NCBI GenBank assembly: GCA_021775875.1
Contig: JAJFHA010000022.1
Coordinates: forward strand, 62,001-126,000
Length of the DNA: 64,000 nt
Direction: 5' to 3'
Source of the DNA: Hyphomicrobiales bacterium
Lineage (GTDB): Bacteria > Pseudomonadota > Alphaproteobacteria > Rhizobiales > NORP267
Below the pieces are notes generated by a model. The model saw nothing but the letters and a program-made list of their open reading frames with translations, had not been told where the DNA came from and ran no database searches. Below are positions 42,053-54,879 of the stretch, piece by piece; positions within the stretch are counted from its first letter, which is position 1, and the number at the start of each line of letters is the position of its first letter. The translations under genes were made by a program, and so were the position numbers.

Positions 42053-43225
42053 TCACCCAGTCTCAGCGCCAGATTCCGGTAATACCAGATCGGCTTTCTT
42101 CATCCGCGAGAACAGGAACCAGATTATGATGCCGGCCACCACCAGAATGGCGATACCGAGCAATGGCCGGTAGAAAACCCAGGCGATTGCAATTGTGACA
42201 AGCGACAGGCTGCCCGCCAGCAAAGCGGAAACAAAGCTGATCCCGGTGCCGACAATCTGCCCAACCAACGGCACGATCGCAGCAATTGTCCGCAATACGC
42301 CAAACAGCAGCTTGAAGCCGATAAACATCATCATGAAGCCTGCAAACCGCAGCGCCCAGGTGAGATATTTGTTGCGCAGCTCCGCCGCCTTGAACATGGC
42401 GACGGCGGAAACAATGCCCATATCCAGCAATTCAATTGTGCCACCGGCTTCGGCCTGAAACGGAGCCAGACCGTTTCCCGCCTGCGCCGCGATGACACTG
42501 ACTTCGGTAGGCCTGACAATGGTGAGGTTGATCCGCAAATCGCCAATCGCAGGGGATTGCGGGTTGCCCACGTGGATGCTGCCATTGACGAGGCGGGCGC
42601 GATAGCCAAGGCTCGCCGGGATCGTCACATTATCCGATACCGGCAAGGCTTCTTCCCCGGAAATGGAGCCGATCAGGCTCGACGACAGCCGATACACCCC
42701 AACCGAGACCTGGTTGGCTTGCCATGAATCAGATGAAAGCGCCATTTGGCCAGGATTCCGATGCCCCGTCTGATTTTTGAAACGCGAAGAATCTATCACC
42801 TGCTCCGACCAGACCATCTCATAATTATAGGTGGTGACCGTCTCCGTCCCCCCACCAAATTTTTCGCGGGTCTCGCTGGTGGAGCTTTCCCACCATTGAT
42901 ACATTTCAACATCGCGGCCAAGACGGATGGCATTTTCAGAGACGCCCAATACCGGGTCCGTGACATTTTCGCTGGTTTCCGCGCGGCCGGTAAAATGGAT
43001 TAATTGCCCCTCGTTAGCAGGGTCGCGGGTGGCGGCATCAACTGAGACCACAAGACCGGCACCTTCTTGCAAAGTTTTATACCGCTCTACCGCCCGGCCC
43101 TCGTTCCAGAACAGGAACGGGAAAGCAATGACGATCAACAACAACCCGAAAAGCATGCCTGTGAGAGCACCTTTCATGCGTCCAAACCATGATTGACTGG
43201 TGGTTTCCTGAAAGCCGTTACTCAT
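42053..43225 (-). CDS. TMEM43 family membrane protein
   Basis: A 390-residue homologue of eukaryotic TMEM43/LUMA. A first membrane helix (ALTGMLFGLLLIVIAFPFLFWNEGRAVERYKTL) with the family's WNEGRAV motif is followed by a large periplasmic domain (residues about 45-270) and a cluster of three C-terminal helices. The bacterial function is unknown. Confidence 0.9.
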   Translation of the reverse strand: MSNGFQETTSQSWFGRMKGALTGMLFGLLLIVIAFPFLFWNEGRAVERYKTLQEGAGLVVSVDAATRDPANEGQLIHFTGRAETSENVTDPVLGVSENAIRLGRDVEMYQWWESSTSETREKFGGGTETVTTYNYEMVWSEQVIDSSRFKNQTGHRNPGQMALSSDSWQANQVSVGVYRLSSSLIGSISGEEALPVSDNVTIPASLGYRARLVNGSIHVGNPQSPAIGDLRINLTIVRPTEVSVIAAQAGNGLAPFQAEAGGTIELLDMGIVSAVAMFKAAELRNKYLTWALRFAGFMMMFIGFKLLFGVLRTIAAIVPLVGQIVGTGISFVSALLAGSLSLVTIAIAWVFYRPLLGIAILVVAGIIIWFLFSRMKKADLVLPESGAETG

Positions 43226-43325
43226 AATCGCATTCTCCGTCTATTGGAGTTGAACCCTAACATATCAGGAGGTTCAGGCAATGATCCGTAGTCGGAACAA
43301 CACCCATCACACAAAGTCCAGCGCA

Positions 43326-43355
43326 CAAAAAAAGGCGGCCCTTGCGGACCGCCTT
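43326..43355 (-). terminator. Rho-independent terminator after the glycine-zipper gene
   Basis: Stem AAGGCGGCCC/GGACCGCCTT with one mismatch and a 4-base loop, followed on the minus strand by a run of seven T. It lies 25 bases downstream of the glycine-zipper gene stop. Confidence 0.82.
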
Positions 43356-43379
43356 CTCATACATTTCTGAAAGCCGGTT

Positions 43380-43880
43380 TTACTGGCAGAATTGCCGCGG
43401 ACCGTTGCCATAAGGCTGGAACGTGCCGTCACCAGGGCGGAACGAGCGGTAGCGCCTGTCACAATCGGCATACCAACCCGGTGACCATGGCTCATAACCG
43501 CCACCGCGATGAGCCCGTACCGGTTGTTGATATCTGGCGGACTGCATGCAACGACCAAACTGGCGGTCGTAAGCCGCATTCCAGCGTGCATCATGGGTTG
43601 CGGCACCAGCGAGAGCGCCAACGCCGCCGCCGATCAGAGCACCACGGCCAGCAGACCGGCTACCTCTGGAACTACCAATAATGGCCCCCAGGGCGCCGCC
43701 AAGAAGCGCACCACCGACGGCACCTGATCCTGGGCTGCGAGCAACACGGTTCGCATGGTTTCTGGCTTCACGGTCACATTGTGCGCGCGAAGCAGCTTCT
43801 GCCGGGACTGAAACCGGGATGGCCAGTGAAGTCGACATAATCGCCGCCACCAGTAAGCTTGTTGTAAATTTCTGTTTCAT
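43380..43880 (-). CDS. Exported glycine-zipper protein
   Basis: A 166-residue protein with a signal peptide (about residues 1-30, ending PAEAA). Two glycine-zipper helices follow (GAVGGALLGGALGAIIGSS and GALIGGGVGALAGAATHDA, about residues 53-97), then a Cys-containing C-terminal part with NAAYDRQFGRCM. Glycine-zipper proteins insert in the outer membrane or envelope. The start is preceded by a strong GGAGG, and a terminator follows, so it is a well-expressed single gene. Confidence 0.87.
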   Translation of the reverse strand: MKQKFTTSLLVAAIMSTSLAIPVSVPAEAASRAQCDREARNHANRVARSPGSGAVGGALLGGALGAIIGSSRGSRSAGRGALIGGGVGALAGAATHDARWNAAYDRQFGRCMQSARYQQPVRAHRGGGYEPWSPGWYADCDRRYRSFRPGDGTFQPYGNGPRQFCQ

Positions 43881-43976
43881 GTTTACCTCCAAGGCTTATT
43901 GAAACACCATACCCTCACGGAAACATGATGAACACTGATTGAGGTCAATTCAAGACCTTTTTGGTTCCAAAGTGAA

Positions 43977-44681
43977 TCAGGCCACAACCCCGACATATTG
44001 GTTGAGGGTGTTTTCGTCCCGCAAAGCCTTGCTGTCGCCATTGTAAACGATCATGCCACGGTCCATGACAATAGTGGTTTCCGCAAACGCCAAAGCAAAT
44101 TTTACATGCTGCTCCACAAGCAAAATTGCCAGATTAAATTCGTCGCGCAAGCGGGTAATGATCTCGCCAAGTTCCTCCACTATCACTGGTGCCAGTCCTT
44201 CTGACGGCTCATCCATCAACAGCAATTTCGGGTTGCCAACAAGCGCCCGCGCAATCGCCAGCATCTGCTGTTCACCACCGGACAATTGGTTGCCCCGGTT
44301 CGAACGCCGCGCCGCCAGATTGGGAAATAAATCAAATACCTGCTCAACCGACCAGTCACCAGACTGGCGGGCCACATCGATATTTTCCTGCACCGTGAGG
44401 GACGGAAATACTTCCCGTTCCTGAGGCACATAGCCAATCCCCATCCGGCATCTTTTATACGCCGCTACCCGGGTCAGGTCTTTTGATTCGAACCGGATCG
44501 ACCCGTCGCGCAAATTGGCATGGCCCATAATGGTCGCCAGCAGCGACGATTTTCCGACCCCGTTACGACCGATAATTGAAACGCACTGGCCCTCCGAAAG
44601 GGTCAGATTCAAATTTTCAAGAACAATCGTTTCGCCATACCCGGCAGATACATTTTCAAGCTGAAGCAGCGGATCAGGCAT
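43977..44681 (-). CDS. livF: Branched-chain-type ABC transporter ATP-binding protein LivF
   Basis: A 234-residue ATPase. Walker A is GRNGVGKSSLLA (about residues 37-48), the signature is QLSGGEQQMLAIARAL and Walker B is LLLMDEPSEGLAP, the LivF form. It overlaps livG by 8 bases and is last in the livKHMGF order. The transporter family covers branched-chain amino acids, amides, urea and aromatic acids, so the livF name reflects family, not proven substrate. Confidence 0.95.
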   Translation of the reverse strand: MPDPLLQLENVSAGYGETIVLENLNLTLSEGQCVSIIGRNGVGKSSLLATIMGHANLRDGSIRFESKDLTRVAAYKRCRMGIGYVPQEREVFPSLTVQENIDVARQSGDWSVEQVFDLFPNLAARRSNRGNQLSGGEQQMLAIARALVGNPKLLLMDEPSEGLAPVIVEELGEIITRLRDEFNLAILLVEQHVKFALAFAETTIVMDRGMIVYNGDSKALRDENTLNQYVGVVA

Positions 44682-45426
44682 CGAGGCTCTCCCCCAGATA
44701 AACTGCCCGCACTTGCTCGTTTTCGGCAATTTCCTCGGGCGTGCCTTCGGTAAGAATAGCCCCGCTCACAAGCACACTGATACTTTTTGCAAACCTGAAC
44801 ACAACGTCCATGTCATGCTCGATGATCAAAACCGCAATATCGTCACCGAGCGCGTCCACCGCATCCAGAATGATAGGGGTCTCGGTAGAAGGTACACCTG
44901 CCGCTGGTTCATCCAGCAACAAAACTTTCGGAGACAGACCAAGCGTAATCGCGATTTCCACGAGCCGCTGGCGACCATAGGGCAATTCCTCGATCACGGT
45001 CAGGGCGTCGCTCTGCAGACCAAGCCGTTTCAGCAGGACCATAGCTTCATCGAGAACCTCAGAATTGCGCCACGCCTGGCTCCAGAATACATGATTTTTA
45101 CCCAACCGTTCCGAAACCGACAGAGCTACATTTTCCAGCGTGGTAAGTTTTCGGAAAAGCTGGTTTATCTGAAAAGTACGCGCGAGACCGTTTTTGACCC
45201 GGCCAGATTCACTCATATTGGTTACGTCGCGCTGTTCTAGAAAAATATTCCCCTGATCGGGCTTTAAAACACCGGTCATCAAATTTATAAGGGTTGTTTT
45301 ACCGGCACCATTTGGGCCGATAAGAGCGTGGCGCGCACCCGCTTCGAGAGTCAAATGCACATTTTGCGTAACTGCCAACGCACCGAAACTCTTGTACAAG
45401 CCACGAACTTCAAGAATACCGGTCAT
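44674..45426 (-). CDS. livG: Branched-chain-type ABC transporter ATP-binding protein LivG
   Basis: A 250-residue ATPase with Walker [17 protein letters not shown], the LivG-type ARTFQINQLFRKLTTLENV segment, Walker B VLLLDEPAAGVPSTE and the C-terminal LVSGAILTEGTPEEIAENE. The signature motif is poor (ELPYGRQRLVEIA, as in many LivG). The start overlaps the livM stop by ATGA. Confidence 0.95.
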   Translation of the reverse strand: MTGILEVRGLYKSFGALAVTQNVHLTLEAGARHALIGPNGAGKTTLINLMTGVLKPDQGNIFLEQRDVTNMSESGRVKNGLARTFQINQLFRKLTTLENVALSVSERLGKNHVFWSQAWRNSEVLDEAMVLLKRLGLQSDALTVIEELPYGRQRLVEIAITLGLSPKVLLLDEPAAGVPSTETPIILDAVDALGDDIAVLIIEHDMDVVFRFAKSISVLVSGAILTEGTPEEIAENEQVRAVYLGESLDA

Positions 45427-46424
45427 GCTTTGAGCCTTTTGCAAAACCGGACAAAAGATTCAAGTGCACCCAACAATCCTTGCCGGAAAAACAGGGCCGT
45501 CAATACGAGCACAAAGCCCAGCCCCAATTCCCAATATGCCGGATATTCCTTGGCCAGCTCATCTTCGACGAGAATGTAGACGAGCGCTCCGACAAATGCC
45601 CCGTAAAGTCGACCGGTTCCTCCGAGCACAAGAACGATCAGGATGGTGCCCGACCGCGCAAAACTGAGCACATCAAGGGTTACATACGCATTCACTTGCG
45701 CAAACAATGCCCCGGCAATTCCCGCCATGAATGCGGAGATTGTATAAATTGTGACAAGCCGAAGATGCACCGGTGATCCAATTGCCCGCATCCGTTCGGT
45801 ATTTTCGCGAATGCCAACCAGGCTGCGCCCAAAAGCTGAATTTACAATGCGGCGGCACGCCAGAAACACAAAAAATGTCGCTATCAGGGAATACCAGTAA
45901 TAATTCCGGCGCCAGAGGTCATTCTCGAATATCCCGAAAATCGGATCGATCACGATACCGGAAAGCCCGTCAAAACCGCCTGTCCAGACTTCGGTGACAT
46001 TGGCCAGTTCAGCCATCATGATACCAAGCGCAAGCGTCAGCATCAAAAGCGCCAAACCGTGATACCTGAGCAATATCCACCCGGTAGCAAAGCCGAATGC
46101 ACCTGCCACCGTAGCGCCTGCCAGAAGACCGGAAATCGGTTCATTCCACCCCAAATGAGCCGAAAGCATTCCGGTCACATATGCGCCTGCACCAAAATAA
46201 GCCGCATGACCAAGCGTGACGACTCCGCCATAACCAAGGATCAGATCAAGTGACAGCGCAAAAATGATCGTGATCAGAATTTGCACGCCGAGATTAAGCG
46301 TGATCGGCTGTAAAAAGAAAATCGCAACCGCCACAATCCATGGCAACGCCTCTGCCCAGTGCCAGCGCGTGCGGTCACGCAAAAATACGACAGGGTTTTC
46401 AGCGTCATAGACCTTCGTGGTCAT
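45423..46424 (-). CDS. livM: Branched-chain-type ABC transporter permease LivM
   Basis: A 333-residue permease with eight or nine membrane helices. The family motif region is LGYGGVVTLGHAAYFGAGAYVTGML, and the EAA-like loop is RNYYWYSLIATFFVFLACRRIVNSAFGRSLVGIRENTERMRAIG. Overlaps livH (4 bases) and livG (4 bases). Confidence 0.95.
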   Translation of the reverse strand: MTTKVYDAENPVVFLRDRTRWHWAEALPWIVAVAIFFLQPITLNLGVQILITIIFALSLDLILGYGGVVTLGHAAYFGAGAYVTGMLSAHLGWNEPISGLLAGATVAGAFGFATGWILLRYHGLALLMLTLALGIMMAELANVTEVWTGGFDGLSGIVIDPIFGIFENDLWRRNYYWYSLIATFFVFLACRRIVNSAFGRSLVGIRENTERMRAIGSPVHLRLVTIYTISAFMAGIAGALFAQVNAYVTLDVLSFARSGTILIVLVLGGTGRLYGAFVGALVYILVEDELAKEYPAYWELGLGFVLVLTALFFRQGLLGALESFVRFCKRLKA

Positions 46425-47302
46425 TGGGATGCTCCTTTGCCGAAGAATCCGTCAGGCCTTATCAGCAACACAGCCACCGTAACGACATAGATAAAAAAGG
46501 CACCGCCTTCCGGCCATAGATATTTGCCGGCGGTATCGATAACGCCAAGAACGATTGCTGCCAGAAAGGCACCACGAAGACTGCCAAGTCCCCCGACCGC
46601 AACCACGATCAGGAAGAGCACCAGATAGTTAAACGCAAAGGTCGGTGAGATGCCGACAATGTCGATCGCCAATCCGCCACCAACGCCTGCAAGACCGCTG
46701 CCCAGAGCAAACGTCAGAATGAAGAGCTTGTCCACGTCAATGCCAACGGCTTGTGCCATCTGGCGATTGTCGACGGCGGCCCTGATTTTGGCACCAATAA
46801 TGGTCCGCTCAAACCCGAGCCAGAGCGCAATCGCCATCACAAAGCCAACCACAATCATAAAGAACCGGTAGGTTGGGAATGTCTTGAAACCAAGGTCAAT
46901 TTGCCCCTTGAGAAATTCCGGCAAAACAATTGCCGGTGGGTTAGGCCCGAAAATCAGCGTAACCCCGGCAATCGCCATAAAGGTAATGCCGATTGACATC
47001 AAAACCTGATCAAGTTCACCGGCTTTATAAAGCGGCGCGTAGAGAAGCCGTTCTAGAGGAATAGACATGATCGCAACGAAAAAGAATGCCAGCACAAGGG
47101 CCGGGATAAATGGCACGCCGAGCATGTTCATGCACGCCACCGTTACATAACCACCCGCCATGGCAAACGCTCCATGAGCGAGGTTGACGAAGCCCATCAG
47201 CCCCATGGTGATAGATAGCCCTACTGAAATAACGAAGAGCAACATGGCGTAGGCCAGGCCATCGAAAAAAATACTAACTGCAGAAGTAACAAAACCTGAC
47301 AT
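46421..47302 (-). CDS. livH: Branched-chain-type ABC transporter permease LivH
   Basis: A 293-residue permease with the LivH landmarks ITMGLMGFVNLAHGAFAMAGGYV and ERTIIGAKIRAAVDNRQMAQAVGIDVD. The start at MSGFVTSAV is chosen; the frame continues upstream into the hairpin region. Its message lies after the stem-loop at 47341-47370, so it is probably translated at lower level than the binding protein. Confidence 0.95.
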   Translation of the reverse strand: MSGFVTSAVSIFFDGLAYAMLLFVISVGLSITMGLMGFVNLAHGAFAMAGGYVTVACMNMLGVPFIPALVLAFFFVAIMSIPLERLLYAPLYKAGELDQVLMSIGITFMAIAGVTLIFGPNPPAIVLPEFLKGQIDLGFKTFPTYRFFMIVVGFVMAIALWLGFERTIIGAKIRAAVDNRQMAQAVGIDVDKLFILTFALGSGLAGVGGGLAIDIVGISPTFAFNYLVLFLIVVAVGGLGSLRGAFLAAIVLGVIDTAGKYLWPEGGAFFIYVVTVAVLLIRPDGFFGKGASQ

Positions 47303-47340
47303 GGATCTGATGCGCCCGCTTAAATCTCGTGAAAACAAAA

Positions 47341-47370
47341 CAGGGGCCTGATGGTCTCATCAGGCCCCTG
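47341..47370 (-). terminator. Strong stem-loop between livK and livH
   Basis: Perfect 13-bp stem CAGGGGCCTGATG/CATCAGGCCCCTG with a 4-base loop, followed on the minus strand by TTTTGTTTTC. It sits 15 bases after the binding-protein stop. In ABC operons such elements stop or protect most transcripts so that binding protein is made in excess over the membrane components. Confidence 0.85.
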
Positions 47371-47385
47371 GAAAATGTCTGACGG

Positions 47386-48606
47386 TTATTCGCCGCCGCA
47401 CCGCCCGATAGCCAGAGCCTTACAGGGGTCTGCAACCTGAGGAATGGTGCCAAGCACATTGATGCCAAGACGGCCATCATCGCGCCGGACAACTTCATGA
47501 ATATTGGAATCCATCACAATATCCCGGGTTTCAGGGTCGATCATGATATGACCGCGTGGGCTTTCAAATTCCCAACCGCTCAATGCGGCCATGGTGCCTT
47601 CAGCAGTGATAACACCATTCTGCTCAGTAATGGCATGAGCAATTGCAGCCATGCCGTCCCAGCCACCAACAGCCATGAAGTCTGGCGTTGAATCTTCGCC
47701 GTAAGCTGCTTTCCATGCGGCCACAAACTCCAGGTTTACAGGGGTCTGATAGTCAGCTGAATAATGATGCATGGTGATGAGACCAACCGCGTCGTCGCCC
47801 ATATCCTGCAACTTGGTGTCCTGGGTAATATCGCCAGGACCGATCAGACGGATGCCAGCTTCGGCCATGCCGAGTTGGGCAAATGTCTTGATAACCGCAG
47901 TGGCGTGATTGCCAGCCGGAACAAACACATAGAAGCAATCCGGAGCGGCGTCTTTCACACGCTGGAAGAACGGTGTGAAATCAGGAACCTCACGAGGTCC
48001 GCCCATCGGAATATCTTCAATCAGTGAACCACCAGAAGACTCAAACCCGGTCTGGAAAGCATTGCGGCTGTCCTTGCCCGGAGGATAATCCGTATAGCCA
48101 GCGGCTGCTGTTTCACAGCCCAGGGTGTCATGCGCATACTGGCCCATCGGATATCCCGAATGCCACATGGTGAAAGACACCCTTGCGATATAAGGCGACA
48201 AGCTCGGAATCCAGGCTGTACCCGCATTCATGATGATCATCGGAACTTCGCCCTGGGTCGCCAGAGGCGCACTGGCCATGGCGTTTGGCGAGAATACAAA
48301 CCCGGCAAGGATATCAACTTCCTCAGCCGTGATCAGTTCCTGAACCGCATTCTTGGCGATATCGCCGCCAGGGCGTTTTGAATCGCGCTTGATCAGCGTG
48401 ACCGTATGACCGCCAAAGGCTTCCGGGTGGGTTTCCATGTAAAGGCTCATGCCGCGATCTATTTGTTCGCCAAATTGCGCTGCACCGCCCGAATAGGTCA
48501 GAACGACACCTATCTTTACTTCCTCAGCCTGAACCGGCTGAGATACAGCCAAAAACGGCAATGAAGCCGCCATCAAGCCTGCAAAAAGTCCTGCTTTCAA
48601 AGACAT
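47386..48606 (-). CDS. Periplasmic substrate-binding protein of a branched-chain-type ABC transporter
   Basis: A 406-residue type I periplasmic binding protein with a signal peptide (AGLFAGLMAASLPFLAVS, cleavage near QAEE at about residue 27). The mature N-terminus is EVKIGVVLTYSGGAAQFGEQIDRGM, and GGHTVTLIKRDSKRPGGDIAK follows. GGGAGAG precedes the start. It is longer than LivJ-type amino-acid binders and resembles binders for aromatic or amide compounds; the ligand is not determined by sequence. Confidence 0.94.
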   Translation of the reverse strand: MSLKAGLFAGLMAASLPFLAVSQPVQAEEVKIGVVLTYSGGAAQFGEQIDRGMSLYMETHPEAFGGHTVTLIKRDSKRPGGDIAKNAVQELITAEEVDILAGFVFSPNAMASAPLATQGEVPMIIMNAGTAWIPSLSPYIARVSFTMWHSGYPMGQYAHDTLGCETAAAGYTDYPPGKDSRNAFQTGFESSGGSLIEDIPMGGPREVPDFTPFFQRVKDAAPDCFYVFVPAGNHATAVIKTFAQLGMAEAGIRLIGPGDITQDTKLQDMGDDAVGLITMHHYSADYQTPVNLEFVAAWKAAYGEDSTPDFMAVGGWDGMAAIAHAITEQNGVITAEGTMAALSGWEFESPRGHIMIDPETRDIVMDSNIHEVVRRDDGRLGINVLGTIPQVADPCKALAIGRCGGE

Positions 48607-48670
48607 TTTTCTCTCCCTGTGAATACACTGTTCGCTATCTGGCACAGAGATTGTGTCAGCGCCGCCAACA

Positions 48671-48719
48671 GCAATTAGTCCCCTCTAATTGCCGGGTTGC
48701 CCGACAATAGAGAAGTATA
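48671..48719 (-). promoter_or_regulatory. Inverted repeat and -10 element ahead of the liv operon
   Basis: A perfect inverted repeat GCAATTAG-TCCCCT-CTAATTGC lies at 48671-48692, about 65 bases before the binding-protein start. TATACT (minus strand, 48714-48719) is a good -10; a matching -35 at usual spacing is not clear. The repeat would lie just inside the transcript, where an operator or a leader hairpin could sit. A second short dyad (GTCACATATGAC) is slightly further upstream. Confidence 0.45.
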
Positions 48720-48810
48720 CTGGTCCGTCACATATGACATATCAAGGGCAAAAACGCAGAATCAATGATCGCTGCAAAAAACAAATCAGGGTTGTCAGCA
48801 GAATCGCAAA

Positions 48811-49650
48811 CTAAAGGCGGATCGCTGCTTCACCCCAAAGATTGTAGGCTTTGTAACCCTGCCCCCATTTGCCAGTTTCGGCATCATCCTTGAGCACATC
48901 CAGTTCGTTGGAAATCTCGACCTTGTTGCCATCCGGGTCCTGGACCATGAAAAATAAATTATTCCCGACACCGTGGCGACCAGGCCCCCAGAAAATCCGG
49001 GTCTCGAAAGTTGCAAAATGATCGGCCCAATCGCGAACATCGTTCCAGTCATTGGTTTCCATCGAGAAATGATCCAGCACGGCCATGTCGCCTTTGAAGA
49101 CCGCAAAAGAATGATGCTCGGCATCGGAACGCAAAAACGAAGCCATCAGGCTGTCATCTTCTTCCAACACATAGTCTGACAGGCGCATCCCGACGACATT
49201 TTGGTAAAAATCACCCATCTCAACCGGTTGTGCTGACGCGACCACCACATGTTGCAACCGGCCGGGCAAACCCGAATGGGTATTATTTGGCGCGGAGGAT
49301 TTTACAATTCTGATTTCGACCCCATCCGGGTCAGTGAAACAAAACCCTTCCGATCCAAACGCACCGGAAATGTCTGCTATTTCCACATGCCCTGCCATCA
49401 GATCCCGCGCCTTGGCGATATCGGCCTCATCCTCGGATGCGATAGAAAAATAGCGCAGTTTTTGCGATTTTCCATCAACCAATATAAGCCGCCGTTCGCG
49501 ACCTTCCAGCGCCACAAAATCCGCCCCTTCGCCCACAATCGAAAGATCGATCTGCTTGCAATAAAATTCCTGCATTGCCGCCCGTTGCGGCGTCTCGATA
49601 GCGATGTGGTCGAGATGAAGTTTGATATCTTGAAGCATGATTTTCCCCAT
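48811..49650 (-). CDS. Two-domain VOC protein, probable extradiol ring-cleavage dioxygenase
   Basis: A 279-residue protein with two vicinal-oxygen-chelate domains (about 10-118 and 130-265). The second domain holds a full type I extradiol triad: His134 (LQHVVVA), His194 (LDHFSME) and Glu245 (DGNKVEISNE). The spacing (60 and 51) is close to BphC-type enzymes (64 and 50). HHSFAV (179-184) matches the catalytic His region. This favours iron-dependent meta cleavage of a catechol-like ring. Upstream of the liv genes in the same direction, after MBL and dehydrogenase genes. Confidence 0.85.
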   Translation of the reverse strand: MGKIMLQDIKLHLDHIAIETPQRAAMQEFYCKQIDLSIVGEGADFVALEGRERRLILVDGKSQKLRYFSIASEDEADIAKARDLMAGHVEIADISGAFGSEGFCFTDPDGVEIRIVKSSAPNNTHSGLPGRLQHVVVASAQPVEMGDFYQNVVGMRLSDYVLEEDDSLMASFLRSDAEHHSFAVFKGDMAVLDHFSMETNDWNDVRDWADHFATFETRIFWGPGRHGVGNNLFFMVQDPDGNKVEISNELDVLKDDAETGKWGQGYKAYNLWGEAAIRL

Positions 49651-49670
49651 AAATTCCGCACCCCGTCCCG

Positions 49671-50486
49671 TCAGGCATCCATCAATGGCGACGGCTTTAA
49701 CGGGTCTTCACTGAGAATGACCGTCAGCGGATCATTTTCAAGTTTTGGATACAAATCCATCACCAGCGGGTCATGCCCCGGAATAATATGATCAGGCGTC
49801 GGCGCCAACCGGCGCAACGTGTCATACCCTTCCAGATATTGCGCTACATCGATAACAATCGGAAACGGATTTCCGCTGGTCATGTTTTCGAAAAAATGCG
49901 CCGCATCAGACGCCAGCACCAACGTGCCGCGCCTGGTATTGACGGTGACCGCCTGTAATCCTTTTGAATGACCACCGATAAGGTGCAGGCCGATGCCCGG
50001 AGATAATTCCTGATCACCATCAACAAATCGCACCCGGTTATTGAAATTACAACGGACCAGATCAACCACATCATCTTCTTCAAATGGCATGCGAATGGCC
50101 GCGTGGCGAATATAGCGCCCGGTAGCAAACTTGACTTCTTCGTCCTGGACCACAAATTCGGCATTCGGAAATTTCTGGATATTGCCCGCATGGTCATAAT
50201 GGAGATGGGTCAGGATAACAGTTTTTACGTCTGCTGCGGCAATGCCCAACACTGAAAGGGCTTCAACCGGGCAGCGGGTCAGCGTCCGTTTCCGGGCGTC
50301 CGCGCGCCGCTGGTCGAACCCCGTATCCACCACAATAACGCCGTCCGGTCCCCGCAGCACCCAGATATAATAATACATCGGCAGCGGGCCATCATGGGGA
50401 TCCTGGAAAATGAAAAAATCCCGCGACGGGCGTATGGTCTTTGCATATTTCAGCGCGTAAACCTCATATTCCGGCAATTTGGTCAT
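49671..50486 (-). CDS. Metallo-beta-lactamase fold hydrolase, AHL-lactonase-like
   Basis: A 271-residue protein with the metal-binding HLHYDHAGN motif (near residue 94), a later GGHSKGLQAV His, ASDAAHFFEN and the final DHIIPGHDPLV. The pattern is that of N-acyl homoserine lactonase-like enzymes (AiiA/AttM group), which open lactone rings. In this context it may hydrolyse a lactone intermediate of the catabolic pathway. Its start overlaps the upstream dehydrogenase stop by 4 bases. Confidence 0.9.
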   Translation of the reverse strand: MTKLPEYEVYALKYAKTIRPSRDFFIFQDPHDGPLPMYYYIWVLRGPDGVIVVDTGFDQRRADARKRTLTRCPVEALSVLGIAAADVKTVILTHLHYDHAGNIQKFPNAEFVVQDEEVKFATGRYIRHAAIRMPFEEDDVVDLVRCNFNNRVRFVDGDQELSPGIGLHLIGGHSKGLQAVTVNTRRGTLVLASDAAHFFENMTSGNPFPIVIDVAQYLEGYDTLRRLAPTPDHIIPGHDPLVMDLYPKLENDPLTVILSEDPLKPSPLMDA

Positions 50487-51367
50487 ATCGCATTATCCTC
50501 AAGATATTTGTAAATTTCAGTGTGATCGGCACCGGACGCCAATTGTTCGTCGGCCTTGCTCCACATCTCTGACGCCTGCTTCAAAATAGGCACTTCAAGG
50601 CCCAACTCGCCAGCCAGCTGTGATGCCGCGCGCAAATCCTTGGCCATCAGATCGAGTGCAAAGCCGGACGCGAAATTATCGTCCAGGATTAGCGAATGAA
50701 ATTTGCTCTCGGTCGAGTTATTACGGCCCGTGGAAGAATTGATAACGTCAATCATGGTGCCACGATCAAGCCCGAATTTCTGGCCCACAATCAGCGCTTC
50801 ACTGGCGGCGGCCAGACCGGTTGCTGATAGAAAATTATTCAGCGCCTTCAGGGCATGGCCGGACCCAAGCGGCCCGGTACGGAAAATCCGCCCCATTGTT
50901 TCAAGAACGGGTGTTGCGGTTTCAAGCGCCGCTTCATCATCACCGCCCAGCATGATCGCCAATTCGCCACTAACGGCCTTTTTCGTACCCCCCGATACCG
51001 GCGCATCCAGCATCGCGACACCAAGGTCCGCAAGGCGTTTACCTGTCGCTTGCGTGGTTGCCGGATAAGATGAACTCATATCGACAACGATATTTCCAGC
51101 TTCCAGCCCGTCCGCGAGACAATCTGCACCCGGCCCGAATAAAGCTGCGGCCACGATATCAGCATTGGGCAACATGGTGATGATGATGTCAGCGGCTTTG
51201 GCTGCATCATCAAGGCCAGCAGCCGAAGCTACATTCAATTCGTTGGCAAGGGCGCTACAAACATCAACACGAAGATCGAACAGGACCAGATCGCATCCAG
51301 CCTTCGCCATGTTTCGCGCCATTGGCGCCCCCATATTGCCGAGCCCGATAAAGGCAGTTTTCGTCAT
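50483..51367 (-). CDS. NAD(P)-dependent oxidoreductase, 3-hydroxyisobutyrate dehydrogenase family
   Basis: A 294-residue beta-hydroxyacid dehydrogenase. The N-terminal Rossmann motif is FIGLGNMGAPMARNMAKAG, the substrate loop is LDAPVSGGTKKAVSGELAIM, and the catalytic Lys is in GSGHALKALNNFL. The family includes 3-hydroxyisobutyrate, tartronate-semialdehyde and succinic-semialdehyde reductases; substrate unknown. It heads the leftward catabolic unit and is divergent from the QueG-like operon over 181 bases. Confidence 0.93.
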   Translation of the reverse strand: MTKTAFIGLGNMGAPMARNMAKAGCDLVLFDLRVDVCSALANELNVASAAGLDDAAKAADIIITMLPNADIVAAALFGPGADCLADGLEAGNIVVDMSSSYPATTQATGKRLADLGVAMLDAPVSGGTKKAVSGELAIMLGGDDEAALETATPVLETMGRIFRTGPLGSGHALKALNNFLSATGLAAASEALIVGQKFGLDRGTMIDVINSSTGRNNSTESKFHSLILDDNFASGFALDLMAKDLRAASQLAGELGLEVPILKQASEMWSKADEQLASGADHTEIYKYLEDNAI

Positions 51368-51548
51368 GCTCAATTTCCCGTTTCAAGATTCATGTGTTGA
51401 CCAGAAGAATACAGAGAAATGCTGCGACACAAAGCCTGGAATTTGCAACCGGCGCTTCCTGTTGTAAAAAAACATTATACATATAAAATAATTAGGCCAT
51501 CATCCAGAAACCCGGATGAATGATCGGCAATAAGGGGTTTAGCCAACC
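51368..51548. promoter_or_regulatory. Divergent control region of the catabolic locus
   Basis: This 181-base gap lies between the leftward dehydrogenase-lactonase-VOC-liv unit and the rightward QueG-like operon. It has an AT-rich core (about 51468-51494; TTGTAA, TATACA, TATAAA) and a short inverted repeat TCATCC-N8-GGATGA at 51500-51519. No regulator gene is adjacent. Exact promoters cannot be fixed by eye. Confidence 0.4.
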
Positions 51549-52586
51549 ATGGATGCACAACAGGTCAAAGAGCTTGCAAAGTCTCTTGGGGCCGATCTTG
51601 TTGGTATCGCCAGTGCCAAAACCCTGAATGCGTTTCCGCCTGATCCGCTCTGGCCGCAAACGCCAGAGCTTATTTCCAAAAGCTGCAAAAGCGTCATTGT
51701 GGTTGCGAGCCGGATTCCGGTCGCCGCCTTCCGTGCCAAATCCGGCGTTGTCGTCCAGTATATGGACATGCTGGTGCTGCGGCGCATGGACAAGATCGCC
51801 TACCGGATCGCCGACGCTCTGGAAAAAGAGGGCCACCCATCATTTGTCACCGCCGCTCAGGAAACCGACTGGGATTTCAAACATGCCAGCTATGGCCGCC
51901 TCTCAACCCGGCATATGGGAATCGAGGCCGGTCTCGGCACATTCGGGCTGGAAGTGAATATTCTGACACCGGAATTCGGCCCGCGGATTTATCTGACCGG
52001 CATCCTGACCGATCTGGAACTGGAGCCGGATAGAATCATGACCGAGCAGGTTTGTATCGGTGAATCCTGTTCCCGCTGCCTCCATTCCTGCCCGACCGAT
52101 GCGGTCAAACATTTCGGTATCGACAAGCGCAAATGCGCCGAAGCCGCCCAGGAATTTGGTTTCATGACGTCGCTCGCCACCTGGGAACGGTTTATTGATG
52201 GCGACACCGAACAGAAAAAAGAGGCCATCCGCTCACGCGATATTTACGGCCTCTGGCAAGGCCTGTTGCGGGTCGTCGGCTCGTTTGGCGATTGCCCGCG
52301 CTGTCTGGCCGTCTGCCCGGTCGGCAACGATTACCATGCCCATTTATCAAGCGAGCAAAAGGTCATTCCAGAAAAGACACCGGAAAAGGTCGCACGGGGA
52401 AAAGCCTTCAAACAGGCCCGCAAAGACGGCGATGAGATTGATGGCCTGAACCAATGGAACCGGCGTTGGGTCGGCCCGGACGGGTATCAGGGCATGGTCG
52501 CCCGGCAGATGCAGGAATTCAAAAAACAACAGGCGCAACGGGCCAGCGAAAATAAATTCAAGCGCGAACCGGAGGACATATCCTGA
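51549..52586 (+). CDS. QueG-like double [4Fe-4S] reductase, tandem copy 1
   Basis: A 345-residue protein related to epoxyqueuosine reductase and to the core of reductive dehalogenases. The corrinoid-type core is EAGLGTFGLEVNILTPEFGP (from residue 126). Eight Cys are arranged C169-x4-C174-x2-C177-x3-C181, C196, and C249-x2-C252-x3-C256, which fits two [4Fe-4S] clusters. No signal peptide is seen, so it is cytoplasmic. It is not QueG by context, and its C-terminus lacks QueG's HEAT-like repeat. The stop overlaps the next start by one base. Confidence 0.85.
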   Translation: MDAQQVKELAKSLGADLVGIASAKTLNAFPPDPLWPQTPELISKSCKSVIVVASRIPVAAFRAKSGVVVQYMDMLVLRRMDKIAYRIADALEKEGHPSFVTAAQETDWDFKHASYGRLSTRHMGIEAGLGTFGLEVNILTPEFGPRIYLTGILTDLELEPDRIMTEQVCIGESCSRCLHSCPTDAVKHFGIDKRKCAEAAQEFGFMTSLATWERFIDGDTEQKKEAIRSRDIYGLWQGLLRVVGSFGDCPRCLAVCPVGNDYHAHLSSEQKVIPEKTPEKVARGKAFKQARKDGDEIDGLNQWNRRWVGPDGYQGMVARQMQEFKKQQAQRASENKFKREPEDIS

Positions 52587-53581
52587 TGGTGGAAATATTT
52601 CAAAGCGCGATCAGCGCGGAAGATATCAAGGCCAAAACCCGTGCGTTGGGATTGGACCTGACCGGGATAGCTGATGCGAGCGTAATGAACGAAAACCCGT
52701 CTGATCCCGACGACCCGCGCCGCCCGGCAGATATATCCGACCATGATGCGGACCGGGTTATCGTTATCGCCAAGCGGCTCAATATGGGCGCGACCCGCCT
52801 GACCCGCTGGGACGAGCGTCACAAATATTATAATGATGAGCTAACCCTCACGATGCTTGAAGAAGCCGCCCTTGAGCTGGTGCTCTGGCTGGAGGATCAA
52901 GGCTATCCGGCCCTGATGATCCCGCCGACACATACCGATCCCTGGGCTTATCAAGGCGATCCGAAAGCGCATTTGCACACAATCCTATCGCTGCCCCACG
53001 CTGCCGTGGAAGCGGGCCTCGGCACCCTTGGCCTGAACCAGCAATTGCTGACACCGGAATTCGGCCCGCGCGTTATGCTCGGCGCAGTACTTACCTCAGC
53101 ACCGGTAGAACCGGATTTGAGGGAAGAAACCGGCCTGTGCCATGGCCCTGCATGTGGGCGCTGCCTTTCTTCCTGCCCCGGCGATGTGATCAAACATTGG
53201 GACCGCGACTGGGCGGCGTGTGACCGCTACAAATCTCCTCATGGCTTTGCTGCCTTGACCGAACACGTTGAAAATATCATCGACGAGCCGGACAATCAGA
53301 AAAAGAAAGCGATGCTGCGCTCCGAAGATCAATTTTATATCTGGCAAAGTATCCTGCGCGGCTCCGGCGTCGTTACCGGCTGCCGCCGCTGTCAGGATGT
53401 CTGCCCGGTGGGCGCGGATTATGAGAGCTTGAGTGACGCGCTTGAAGAGATTGCAGAAGCCAGTGACGAAAAAACTGCGCGGCTGCAAGAATATGTCAAA
53501 GCTGAAACCAGCGGCGAAATACCTCCCGCCTACAAAGACGCATCGCGTTGGATTGGCACTATTTCCGGGACACAAAAATGA
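52586..53581 (+). CDS. QueG-like double [4Fe-4S] reductase, tandem copy 2
   Basis: A 331-residue paralogue of the preceding protein. It has the same core (EAGLGTLGLNQQLLTPEFGP from residue 142) and the same Cys layout: C185-x4-C190-x2-C193-x3-C197, C212, C266-x2-C269-x3-C273. The Cys order and spacing are nearly identical between the copies, while the rest is clearly diverged, so a heterodimer of old paralogues is plausible. The stop overlaps the start of the ligase-like gene (ATGA). Confidence 0.85.
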   Translation: MVEIFQSAISAEDIKAKTRALGLDLTGIADASVMNENPSDPDDPRRPADISDHDADRVIVIAKRLNMGATRLTRWDERHKYYNDELTLTMLEEAALELVLWLEDQGYPALMIPPTHTDPWAYQGDPKAHLHTILSLPHAAVEAGLGTLGLNQQLLTPEFGPRVMLGAVLTSAPVEPDLREETGLCHGPACGRCLSSCPGDVIKHWDRDWAACDRYKSPHGFAALTEHVENIIDEPDNQKKKAMLRSEDQFYIWQSILRGSGVVTGCRRCQDVCPVGADYESLSDALEEIAEASDEKTARLQEYVKAETSGEIPPAYKDASRWIGTISGTQK

Positions 53582-54879
53582 AACCAGAAACCAGCCCCCT
53601 GCCGATCCCGAAATCCCGTGAGGACCTCGCGGCGCATCAAAGCCGACGTAAAAGGGTGGCGGTGGAAAATGCCAAACGCTCAAAATTCTGGCAGGGCAAG
53701 CTCGACCATATCAACATGGACTATCTGGACCAGCCGGAGGAATGGGCGAAAATCCCGATCCTTCACAAAGATACATTGCGGGAAATTGCCGACGATAATT
53801 TCTTCGATACCTTCTGCATCGCGCCGCGCTCCGAGATCAGCGAGTTTTGGCGCTCCGGTGGATCAACCGGAAAACCGCTTTTTTACCCACGCACCTTTGA
53901 AGACATAAAATACGCCATGGCCGCCTTTGGCCGTTCTTATGAAATGATGGAAGTTACACCGGACGATGTCGCCCATAACAGCTTCCCGCTGGGCATCCAC
54001 CCGGCTGGCCATATGTGGGGGCGCTCCGCCAGCCTTCACGGCGTCGGCGTCAATTGGTCCGGTGCCGGATCAGGAACTCCCTCCGCTATGCAACTGGCCC
54101 TGCTTGATATGATGCAACCCTCGATCTGGATGGGGATGCCAAGCTTCGGGCTTCATCTCGCCAATCTGGCGGAAGAAAAAGGCATCAACCTGGCGTCCGG
54201 CAGCGTCAAGAAAATACTTACTTCGGCCGAACCCTTGTCAAACGCCAAACGTGAAAAGCTGGAACGCCAATGGGGCGCAAAGGTGTTTGATAGTTTCGGC
54301 ATGACCGAATGTTCGCTGATGGGGTCCCAATCCGTGCATCACGATGGTCTTGTTATGTGGACCGACATGGCCTTCATCGAAGTGCTTGATGAAGACACCC
54401 TCGAACCGCTCGCCGAAGACAAACAGGGCACCCTGGTCATGACGTCCCTGATGACCAATAACGCCACCCCGTTTCTGCGCTGGAACGCCGGCGACATCGT
54501 CACCTGGCACGATCAAAGCGCCGCGACTGATGCCTATTCCGTCTTTCCCATGATCCGCCACGCCCATCGCACGGCAGGCTTTTTCAAGGTGCGCGGCGTC
54601 AACATCAACCATTCCGAATTTGAAGACTTGATGTTCACCCAGCCCCAATTGGCGGAATTCACCCTGTCGGCTGAAAACCGGGGTGATGCTGATATTCTGC
54701 ATCTCCGCGTCGAATTGACCAAAGGAAGCGATCCGACCCGCGAAACCTCTTACCTGTCCGATCTGGTCAAAGGCACCTTTGAGGTAACCCCGGAAATCAA
54801 CATTCTGGAGCGCGGAACGATTGGCGCTGAGTTTGAAAAAACCATCAAGGCACAACGGTTTTCCGACAATAGAGGTTAG
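53578..54879 (+). CDS. Phenylacetate-CoA ligase-like adenylate-forming enzyme
   Basis: A 433-residue member of the PaaK-like branch of the ANL superfamily. The AMP-binding P-loop is WRSGGSTGKPLFYPRT (about residues 98-113), followed by FDSFGMTECSLMGSQ (A5-type motif) and FLRWNAGDIVTWHD. The C-terminal lid has FFKVRGVNINHSEFEDL. Such enzymes activate aromatic or other carboxylic acids as CoA thioesters. It is translationally coupled to the two QueG-like genes, so a CoA-activated acid is likely their shared substrate or product. Confidence 0.9.
   Translation: MKPETSPLPIPKSREDLAAHQSRRKRVAVENAKRSKFWQGKLDHINMDYLDQPEEWAKIPILHKDTLREIADDNFFDTFCIAPRSEISEFWRSGGSTGKPLFYPRTFEDIKYAMAAFGRSYEMMEVTPDDVAHNSFPLGIHPAGHMWGRSASLHGVGVNWSGAGSGTPSAMQLALLDMMQPSIWMGMPSFGLHLANLAEEKGINLASGSVKKILTSAEPLSNAKREKLERQWGAKVFDSFGMTECSLMGSQSVHHDGLVMWTDMAFIEVLDEDTLEPLAEDKQGTLVMTSLMTNNATPFLRWNAGDIVTWHDQSAATDAYSVFPMIRHAHRTAGFFKVRGVNINHSEFEDLMFTQPQLAEFTLSAENRGDADILHLRVELTKGSDPTRETSYLSDLVKGTFEVTPEINILERGTIGAEFEKTIKAQRFSDNRG

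Follow-up and report, generated by a model that had tools for sequence, protein, structure and literature searches.

The analysis concerns a three-gene operon, here called A-B-C, in a 64,000-nt stretch of DNA from a Hyphomicrobiales bacterium (the window; gene positions are those of this whole stretch). A and B encode paralogous iron-sulfur proteins related to epoxyqueuosine reductase (QueG) and reductive dehalogenases (RdhA), and C encodes an adenylate-forming acid:coenzyme A (CoA) ligase. The features are as follows:

51549..52586, plus strand: gene A, 345 aa, QueG/RdhA-fold protein (by prediction) with eight invariant cysteines (two putative [4Fe-4S] sites).
52053..52136, plus strand: first five cluster cysteines of A (C169-x4-C-x2-C-x3-C ... 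C196).
52586..53581, plus strand: gene B, 331 aa, paralogue of A with eight invariant cysteines.
53138..53221, plus strand: first five cluster cysteines of B (C185-x4-C-x2-C-x3-C ... C212).
53578..54879, plus strand: gene C, 433 aa, PaaK-like adenylate-forming acid:CoA ligase, start ATG 53578.

In the list of open reading frames, C starts at an earlier TTG (53548). The junctions described in the first-pass annotation, a model's reading of the letters without database searches, proved exact to the base: one base is common to A and B (TGATG), and B and C overlap by four bases (ATGA). The EAGLGT-GL core reported there was present in A and in B, which are 37% identical across 318 columns. Relatives were taken as the best 80 of the 154 found in a scan of further genomes, and counts out of 80 refer to these loci (loci, genomes and contigs carry L, G and C numbers, respectively). 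The near-identical eight-cysteine layout was also borne out: the cysteines of A (169, 174, 177, 181, 196, 249, 252, 256) were invariant in 80/80 A sequences, those of B (185, 190, 193, 197, 212, 266, 269, 273) were invariant in 75/75 B sequences, and the two sets are spaced almost alike. A ninth cysteine of A, Cys46, was variable. The alignment of 80 A rows was made without the A of L052, and the 75-row B alignment without the B of L110 and of L052, L118, L123, L128 and L129 (in these five, the matched sequence contains a stop or an X). Sequences of a second, more distant form of the pair (L049-L051, from two genomes) were aligned in separate sets.

QueG model TIGR00276 was the top NCBIfam match for both proteins, with scores below its cut-off of 200 bits (A 59.2, B 40.9). 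The RdhA model TIGR02486 also scored below cut-off (A 42.0, B 40.3 bits; cut-off 160.35), and a Pfam search at E 0.01 gave no match to PF08331 (QueG_DUF1730) in A or B. The same genome encodes a proper QueG on another contig (G000:C27), which scored 426.8 bits with TIGR00276 and was the sole PF08331 match in the genome. Orthology of A or B with QueG, which the first-pass annotation had named as fatal to its proposal of a dedicated reductive step, was therefore rejected: the scores are far under cut-off, PF08331 is absent and QueG lies elsewhere.

Structure models were of good quality for B (pLDDT 89.6, pTM 0.89) and fair for A (pLDDT 75.0). With Foldseek, all 46 matches at E<=0.001 were RdhA or QueG, for A and B alike; the next best was human CblC (MMACHC) for both, and CblD for A. 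Alignment of the models to RdhA and QueG with VIA-align gave Z 16.8-18.1 (B) and 13.8-15.4 (A) over 198-238 residues, and alignment to MMACHC gave Z 8.5-10.4 (B) and 7.5-8.7 (A). When whole models were compared with QueG, which has a C-terminal HEAT-like domain, the match ended near residue 282 in B and 266 in A. The predicted folds thus have the layout of class III cobalamin enzymes (nitroreductase-like corrinoid module plus two-cluster ferredoxin module), and the models of both proteins support the corrinoid-type module that the first-pass annotation had read from the core motif.

In an alignment with the QueG of the same genome and RdhA-like proteins, the QueG active-site tyrosine (Tyr-101 of the S. 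thermophilus enzyme, according to the excerpted text of PMC4646009) was kept as Tyr71 in 79/80 A and as Tyr82 in 74/75 B sequences. The aspartate two positions further on was kept in all (A Asp73, 80/80; B Asp84, 75/75) and is also found in the QueG of this genome; the stretch Tyr82-Asn83-Asp84 is a kept feature of B. Both residues are retained by B in the second form. In this alignment, which is gapped at that stretch, the active-site tyrosine of the RdhA rows (PceA Tyr-246) does not fall in this column. A histidine (A 122, B 138) was kept in 80/80 and 74/75 sequences, at a position occupied by proline in the QueG and RdhA-like rows.

In a 49-row tree, built from one in five of the A and B rows together with other sequences, the A proteins, the B proteins and the RdhA-type proteins each lay on one side of a branch, as did a further group with the same EAGLG-type core (the cluster-26 or 'E' proteins); support values were 95/94 (A), 89/96 (B), 100/98 (RdhA) and 100/99 (E). 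The tree does not fix the branching order of A, B and E, and its deeper joins are unreliable because of long branches. From the sub-cut-off scores and the distinct active-site residues, A and B therefore constitute, on sequence criteria, a distinct pair of families.

Besides QueG, A and B, the genome encodes four more proteins with the same core outside the window. These are the RdhA-like proteins at L008:133-2292, L005:1195-2478 and L009:1318-2316 (TIGR02486 161.4, 159.2 and 100.2 bits, respectively, against the cut-off of 160.35), and a cluster-26-type protein at L004:1432-2541.

The pair is conserved as a unit. B lay downstream of A in 80/80 loci, within 400 bp in 79 and at about 530 bp in L076. 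By title the hosts were mostly alphaproteobacterial metagenome-assembled genomes (MAGs), with Beta- and Gammaproteobacteria, SAR324 and Rokuibacteriota MAGs; the cultured bacteria Amorphus coralli DSM 19760 and Tateyamaria sp. ANG-S1 were also among them. In a set of 289 genomes of the same class, B was found in 11, from 8 families, and adjoined A in 10/11; in the eleventh (G224), a contig end leaves only half of the B gene, and A was not seen. C lay downstream of B in 57/80 loci, and 75 of the 80 have >=600 bases after B; the other five hold too little sequence past B to show C, and L110, where B is cut short, was skipped in this count. C was found elsewhere in the locus in five cases (L060, L066, L072, L073, L111). 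Lack of the gene trio in other genomes had been named beforehand as a finding that would count against a dedicated system, and the trio was conserved. In L126:3823-5874 (MAG isolate ERR599097_bin.30), A and B form a single open frame of 680 aa, possibly by sequencing error, followed by another AMP-forming ligase in the place of C. For the heterodimer suggested in the first-pass annotation, the constant pairing and this one fused gene are indirect support only.

A second A-B copy in genome G279 (L021 / L048:9315-10307) has an in-frame TGA in B, and may be decaying or reflect a sequencing error. L052, from a 1.1-Mb MAG titled Candidatus Dependentiae, has an A gene 94% identical to that of the window in the same gene order, and its taxon label or bin is for this reason probably wrong. 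Plasmid records with annotated neighbours gave no match at 1e-40.

C matched PF00501 above cut-off and PaaK in the PDB (2y4o, E 4e-29). It scored 136.8 bits with the phenylacetate-CoA ligase model TIGR02155, below the cut-off of 646.3. Its matches include 2-hydroxyisobutyryl-CoA synthetase, and the PaaK-like fold is not diagnostic of substrate. A phenylacetate route was unsupported for C, the phenylacetyl-CoA epoxidase PaaA being found in 0/11 of the class genomes with A-B.

Phylogenetic profiles were computed for the 289 class genomes (11 with A-B, 278 without). The family NF006101, which we take to be of the 2-aminobenzoyl-CoA monooxygenase/reductase type (the model is named bifunctional salicylyl-CoA 5-hydroxylase/oxidoreductase), was present in 11/11 genomes with A-B and in 45/278 others (p 6e-9); its two domains and operon partners fit this label. 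Three kynurenine-pathway families were similarly distributed: kynureninase (TIGR01814, 10/11 vs 44/278, p 2e-7), tryptophan 2,3-dioxygenase (TIGR03036, 10/11 including two fragments vs 35/278, p 3e-8) and 3-hydroxyanthranilate dioxygenase (TIGR03037, 9/11 vs 17/278, p 4.5e-9). Genomes holding NF006101, kynureninase and 3-hydroxyanthranilate dioxygenase together numbered 13, and 9 of these carry A-B. Enrichment of BoxB was predicted beforehand, because reductive removal of a ring substituent would imply the use of benzoyl-CoA. BoxB (TIGR03225) was present in 10/11 vs 20/137 (p 3e-7), the background being a 142-genome class sample minus the five A-B genomes listed in it, so that G157 (with A-B, without BoxB) may still be counted in the background; overall it was found in 51/56 A-B genomes, a count that omits G289, G320, G323 and G324. 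The control PaaA (TIGR02156, match threshold 1e-100) was present in 0/11 vs 32/278 (depletion p 0.27). Since the control was unenriched, the profile suggests something other than a general wealth of aromatic genes.

In a wider set, 50 of the 80 loci were chosen, representing 49 genomes (G320 is probably the same as G157, with identical monooxygenase coordinates). NF006101 matched at 1e-100 in 48/49, with both domains in 47/49 and above the family cut-off in 41/49, some matches being cut by contig ends. An aryl-CoA ring-attacking enzyme thus co-occurs with A-B in nearly every genome of both sets. Two genomes were exceptions for the two-domain form: G289, a probably incomplete genome of 1.1 Mb, and G323, in which every match covered a single domain. 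Two NF006101 matches above 1000 bits occurred in 11/49 genomes, and in an NF006101 tree (rows L156, L180, L189 and L201, translated in a wrong frame, are disregarded) five second copies (L198, L199, L202, L204, L205) formed a clade of A-B genomes only; over the NF006101-type tree as a whole, no clade private to A-B genomes was found. The genome of the window has an NF006101-type operon at C12:231.6 kb (NF006101-type gene, SDR, MarR, enoyl-CoA hydratase, acyl-CoA dehydrogenase, benzoate-CoA-ligase-family gene), BoxB at C3:108987, and kynurenine-pathway genes, among them kynureninase on C21 and 3-hydroxyanthranilate dioxygenase on C12.

Genes near A-B point in the same direction in a minority of loci. 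An NF006101-type bifunctional monooxygenase/old-yellow-enzyme gene was found near A-B in 7/80 loci, where an assumed density of 1.3 copies per 4.5 Mb would predict about 0.4. In L072, the plus strand carries an NF006101-type gene, SDR, enoyl-CoA hydratase, acyl-CoA dehydrogenase, a ligase and, further on, A and B, with C in between on the minus strand. A protein cluster of the benzoate-CoA-ligase family was represented in 7/80 loci (a gene of this family lies immediately upstream of A in L063, L123, L128 and L129), and another AMP-forming ligase cluster was found in 8/80. A kynureninase cluster was found near A-B in 4/80 loci (two members confirmed with Pfam). In L091:10001-11257, the start of kynureninase overlaps the end of C by four bases, and the two genes are therefore probably in one operon.

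Related corrinoid-type proteins also join the locus, a cluster-26 protein in 5/80 and an RdhA overlapping or following B in 2/80: L060:12015-13406 (Tateyamaria sp. ANG-S1; TIGR02486 179.2 bits vs 160.35) and L066:12047-13405 (Aestuariivita MAG), both with C elsewhere on the minus strand. In L049, of the second form, A-B is followed by an RdhA-type gene (PF13486), an acyl-CoA dehydrogenase and an AMP ligase. A single contig (L212:1-13315) carries RdhA, an AMP-forming ligase and a cluster-26 protein beside an NF006101-type gene, a benzoate-CoA-ligase-family gene and an acyl-CoA dehydrogenase. Parts of a LIV-type ABC transporter were found in 23/80 loci as well as in the window.

Neighbours of the operon in the window itself were rejected as members of the system. 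Upstream (42053-51373) is a divergent set made up of a LIV-type ABC transporter, a VOC protein, an MBL-fold hydrolase and a 3-hydroxyisobutyrate-dehydrogenase-like protein. Its full order, like the last three of these genes, recurs only in L052; downstream, an arginase-family gene was met again in L071 and L097 and an aspartate-dehydrogenase gene in L097. The three upstream genes and the downstream ones are left out for that reason. The VOC protein (48811-49650) scored 90 of 321 bits with HpaD, far under any dioxygenase cut-off. The placing of A-B-C beside ring-cleavage genes in the first-pass annotation rested on this protein and was not upheld; the upstream set recurs in only 1/80 loci. The dedicated reductive step on an activated acid proposed along with it gains indirect support from the phylogenetic profile and from neighbours in other genomes. 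Small cupin-like proteins (by eye) follow C in L053:13416-13862 and L054:13341-13790; the L054 copy had no NCBIfam match at 1e-15.

As a whole, these observations are best explained, tentatively, by a two-subunit class III reductase whose substrate is an aryl-CoA supplied by C or by another ligase. A and B would be two non-interchangeable subunits of a single cobalamin-type enzyme of the kind represented by QueG and RdhA, and this part of the explanation is probably correct. C would convert an aromatic acid to its CoA ester; in operons that lack C, this role would fall to a ligase of the benzoate-CoA-ligase family or to another AMP-forming ligase. Electrons would pass via the [4Fe-4S] clusters to a corrinoid carried by one subunit or by both; B is the likelier corrinoid subunit, because its tyrosine is kept in both forms of the pair. 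The pair would then reductively take off a ring substituent (amino, hydroxyl or halogen) of the aryl-CoA, and the product would enter either the flavin monooxygenase/reductase pathway as 2-aminobenzoyl-CoA or the Box pathway as benzoyl-CoA. The cobalamin, the A:B complex, the aryl-CoA substrate and the bond cut are what we infer: that the substrate is an aryl-CoA is an evenly balanced judgement, and any one bond type is at best a tentative guess. The likeliest source of substrate would be aromatic amines derived from tryptophan and kynurenine, for example 3-hydroxyanthranilate or anthranilate. In its most specific form, which we consider unlikely, A-B would be the first oxygen-tolerant two-subunit corrinoid/Fe-S aryl-CoA reductase, removing amino or hydroxyl groups from anthraniloyl-type CoA esters made by C and so linking the degradation of tryptophan and kynurenine to the pathways of 2-aminobenzoyl-CoA and benzoyl-CoA.

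Several observations weigh against this explanation. The catalytic aspartates of QueG (Asp-130/134) have no conserved counterpart in A or B, in a gapped part of the alignment where A has an invariant Ser114-Tyr115 (80 sequences) and B is variable. The active-site Arg/Lys of RdhA (PceA Arg-305 position, set by counting along alignments), present as Arg or Lys in all five RdhA-like rows, is Tyr in 80/80 A and Met, Ile, Leu or Val in 73/75 B. In the second form, Tyr71 and Asp73 of A are replaced by Met and Asn (3/3), and because B keeps its tyrosine there, A may not be catalytic; the model of A is weak at 106-116 and 236-247, which covers the putative active-site loop. At the genome level, the p-values treat genomes as independent though they are related, the enriched families are mutually correlated, and the PaaA depletion is non-significant and a single control. 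Of the 56 class genomes with NF006101, 45 are without A-B, so A-B is optional to that pathway. G157 has A-B without kynureninase, 3-hydroxyanthranilate dioxygenase or BoxB, and G224 is without 3-hydroxyanthranilate dioxygenase. In the genome of the window, A-B-C shares no contig with the monooxygenase operon, BoxB, kynureninase or 3-hydroxyanthranilate dioxygenase, and neighbours vary greatly between loci.

The alternatives draw on parts of the same evidence. The residue losses would suit an electron-transfer or reductase-activating pair, in which A and B are iron-sulfur carriers, no longer with a corrinoid, that work for an oxygenase or some other reductase: each protein keeps eight invariant cysteines, the catalytic Asp and Arg are gone and the tyrosine of A is lost in the second form. 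Because an RdhA or a cluster-26 protein joins the operon in some loci, A-B could feed either one. We consider such a role unlikely, as these genes are present in 7/80 loci only, and the corrinoid-module fold, the QueG-type tyrosine, the nearby aspartate and many near-invariant positions other than cysteine exceed the needs of a pure carrier. Joining of the operon by a true RdhA (L060, L066 and, by PF13486, L049), together with the RdhA beside an NF006101-type gene in L212, would fit dehalogenation of halo-aromatic acids as CoA esters by A-B (with C). The absent Arg/Lys makes a simple reductive dehalogenase less likely, the TIGR02486 scores are only 42 and 40 bits vs 160, and an RdhA directly follows A-B in 2/80 loci only, so that this alternative is rather improbable. 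Kinship to QueG and the QueG-like tyrosine argue for a bond of the type found in epoxyqueuosine, A-B then being a deoxygenase that restores the aryl-CoA from its toxic epoxide, either 2,3-epoxybenzoyl-CoA or a compound of that kind. BoxB is found in 51/56 A-B genomes, and none of the 11 class genomes with A-B has a PaaA-family match at 1e-100; PaaABCE, according to the excerpted text of PMC4498308, deoxygenates its own epoxide, which is toxic. We regard the deoxygenase as quite unlikely: the QueG catalytic aspartate is not kept, BoxB occurs without A-B in 20/137 class genomes and is absent from 5/56 A-B genomes, it was not identified beside A-B among the part of the neighbours that was named, and C would have no special reason to be in the operon.

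A different division of labour is also conceivable, with one catalytic subunit and a corrinoid-free or regulatory partner acting on a non-aromatic acyl-CoA (of a short branched or heterocyclic acid), the aryl-CoA link reflecting lifestyle. The fold of C, with 2-hydroxyisobutyryl-CoA synthetase among its matches, does not point to any one substrate, and the varied neighbours include acyl-CoA-dehydrogenase-like, HMG-CoA-synthase-like and thiolase genes in L113; the profile is not a general one (NF006101 11/11, PaaA 0/11), which leaves this alternative doubtful. A redundant or diverged epoxyqueuosine reductase, to which the top rank of TIGR00276 among the NCBIfam matches might point, has next to no probability in view of the low scores, the QueG encoded elsewhere, the missing PF08331 and aspartate, and the acid:CoA ligase in the operon.

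Should the two-subunit reductase act in that most specific form, class III B12 chemistry would extend beyond dehalogenation and epoxide reduction, the two chemistries given for this class in the excerpted text of PMC4646009, to a reaction that is elsewhere known in anaerobes, which use different enzymes for it. A conserved paralogue pair in cultured bacteria, tied to tryptophan- and benzoate-type aryl-CoA breakdown, is a concrete place to seek a third class III chemistry, and a heteromeric corrinoid enzyme active in aerobes. An unassigned reductive step of aromatic-amine breakdown would then be easier to place as well. No description of the A-B pair was found in the portions of the open-licence PMC literature searched. 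As far as found, therefore, the layout of two paralogues with a ligase is undescribed; the pair has its kind of fold in common with QueG and RdhA, and it fails the score tests of both.

Among known systems, QueG (TIGR00276; PDB 5d08, 5d6s, 5t8y) resembles A and B in its corrinoid-module and double [4Fe-4S] fold (about 205 residues, Z 15-18), its eight cysteines, the active-site tyrosine and the nearby aspartate (A Asp73, B Asp84). Unlike QueG, A and B are without PF08331 and the catalytic Asp-130/134, occur as tandem paralogues and are linked to a CoA ligase. RdhA (respiratory PceA, catabolic NpRdhA and JtRdhA; TIGR02486; PDB 4uqu, 4ras, 6zxu) has the same fold and redox-module layout and an EAGLG and FGPR-type stretch, whereas in A and B the active-site Arg/Lys is replaced and two paralogues are arranged with a CoA ligase. 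JtRdhA carries a fused reductase domain (PMC10463259, in the part of the text excerpted), and A and B are without one. CblC/MMACHC and CblD belong to the same family of corrinoid-binding modules (Z about 8-10 and 6-7, respectively); CblC, unlike A and B, has no ferredoxin domain (PMC4646009, likewise from an excerpt), and the context differs. Like PaaK, C is a PaaK-like adenylate-forming enzyme; unlike PaaK, it scores under the TIGR02155 cut-off, and the 11 class genomes with A-B have no phenylacetyl-CoA epoxidase match.

The 2-aminobenzoyl-CoA monooxygenase/reductase pathway has a matching operon in the genome of the window, and its NF006101 family is present in all 11 class genomes with A-B. 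As described in the excerpted text of PMC4539516, that pathway comprises a ligase, the monooxygenase/reductase and beta-oxidation enzymes, without an Fe-S/corrinoid pair. Under anaerobic growth, according to the same source and PMC7500099, aminobenzoyl-CoA is reductively deaminated to benzoyl-CoA; for the 4-amino compound the excerpts propose genes resembling those of 4-hydroxybenzoyl-CoA reductase, and for the 2-amino compound they name none. A parallel in chemistry would be this reaction of 2-aminobenzoyl-CoA reductase (deaminating) and of 4-aminobenzoyl-CoA reductive deamination, a C-N cleavage on the aryl-CoA yielding benzoyl-CoA, which A-B might carry out.

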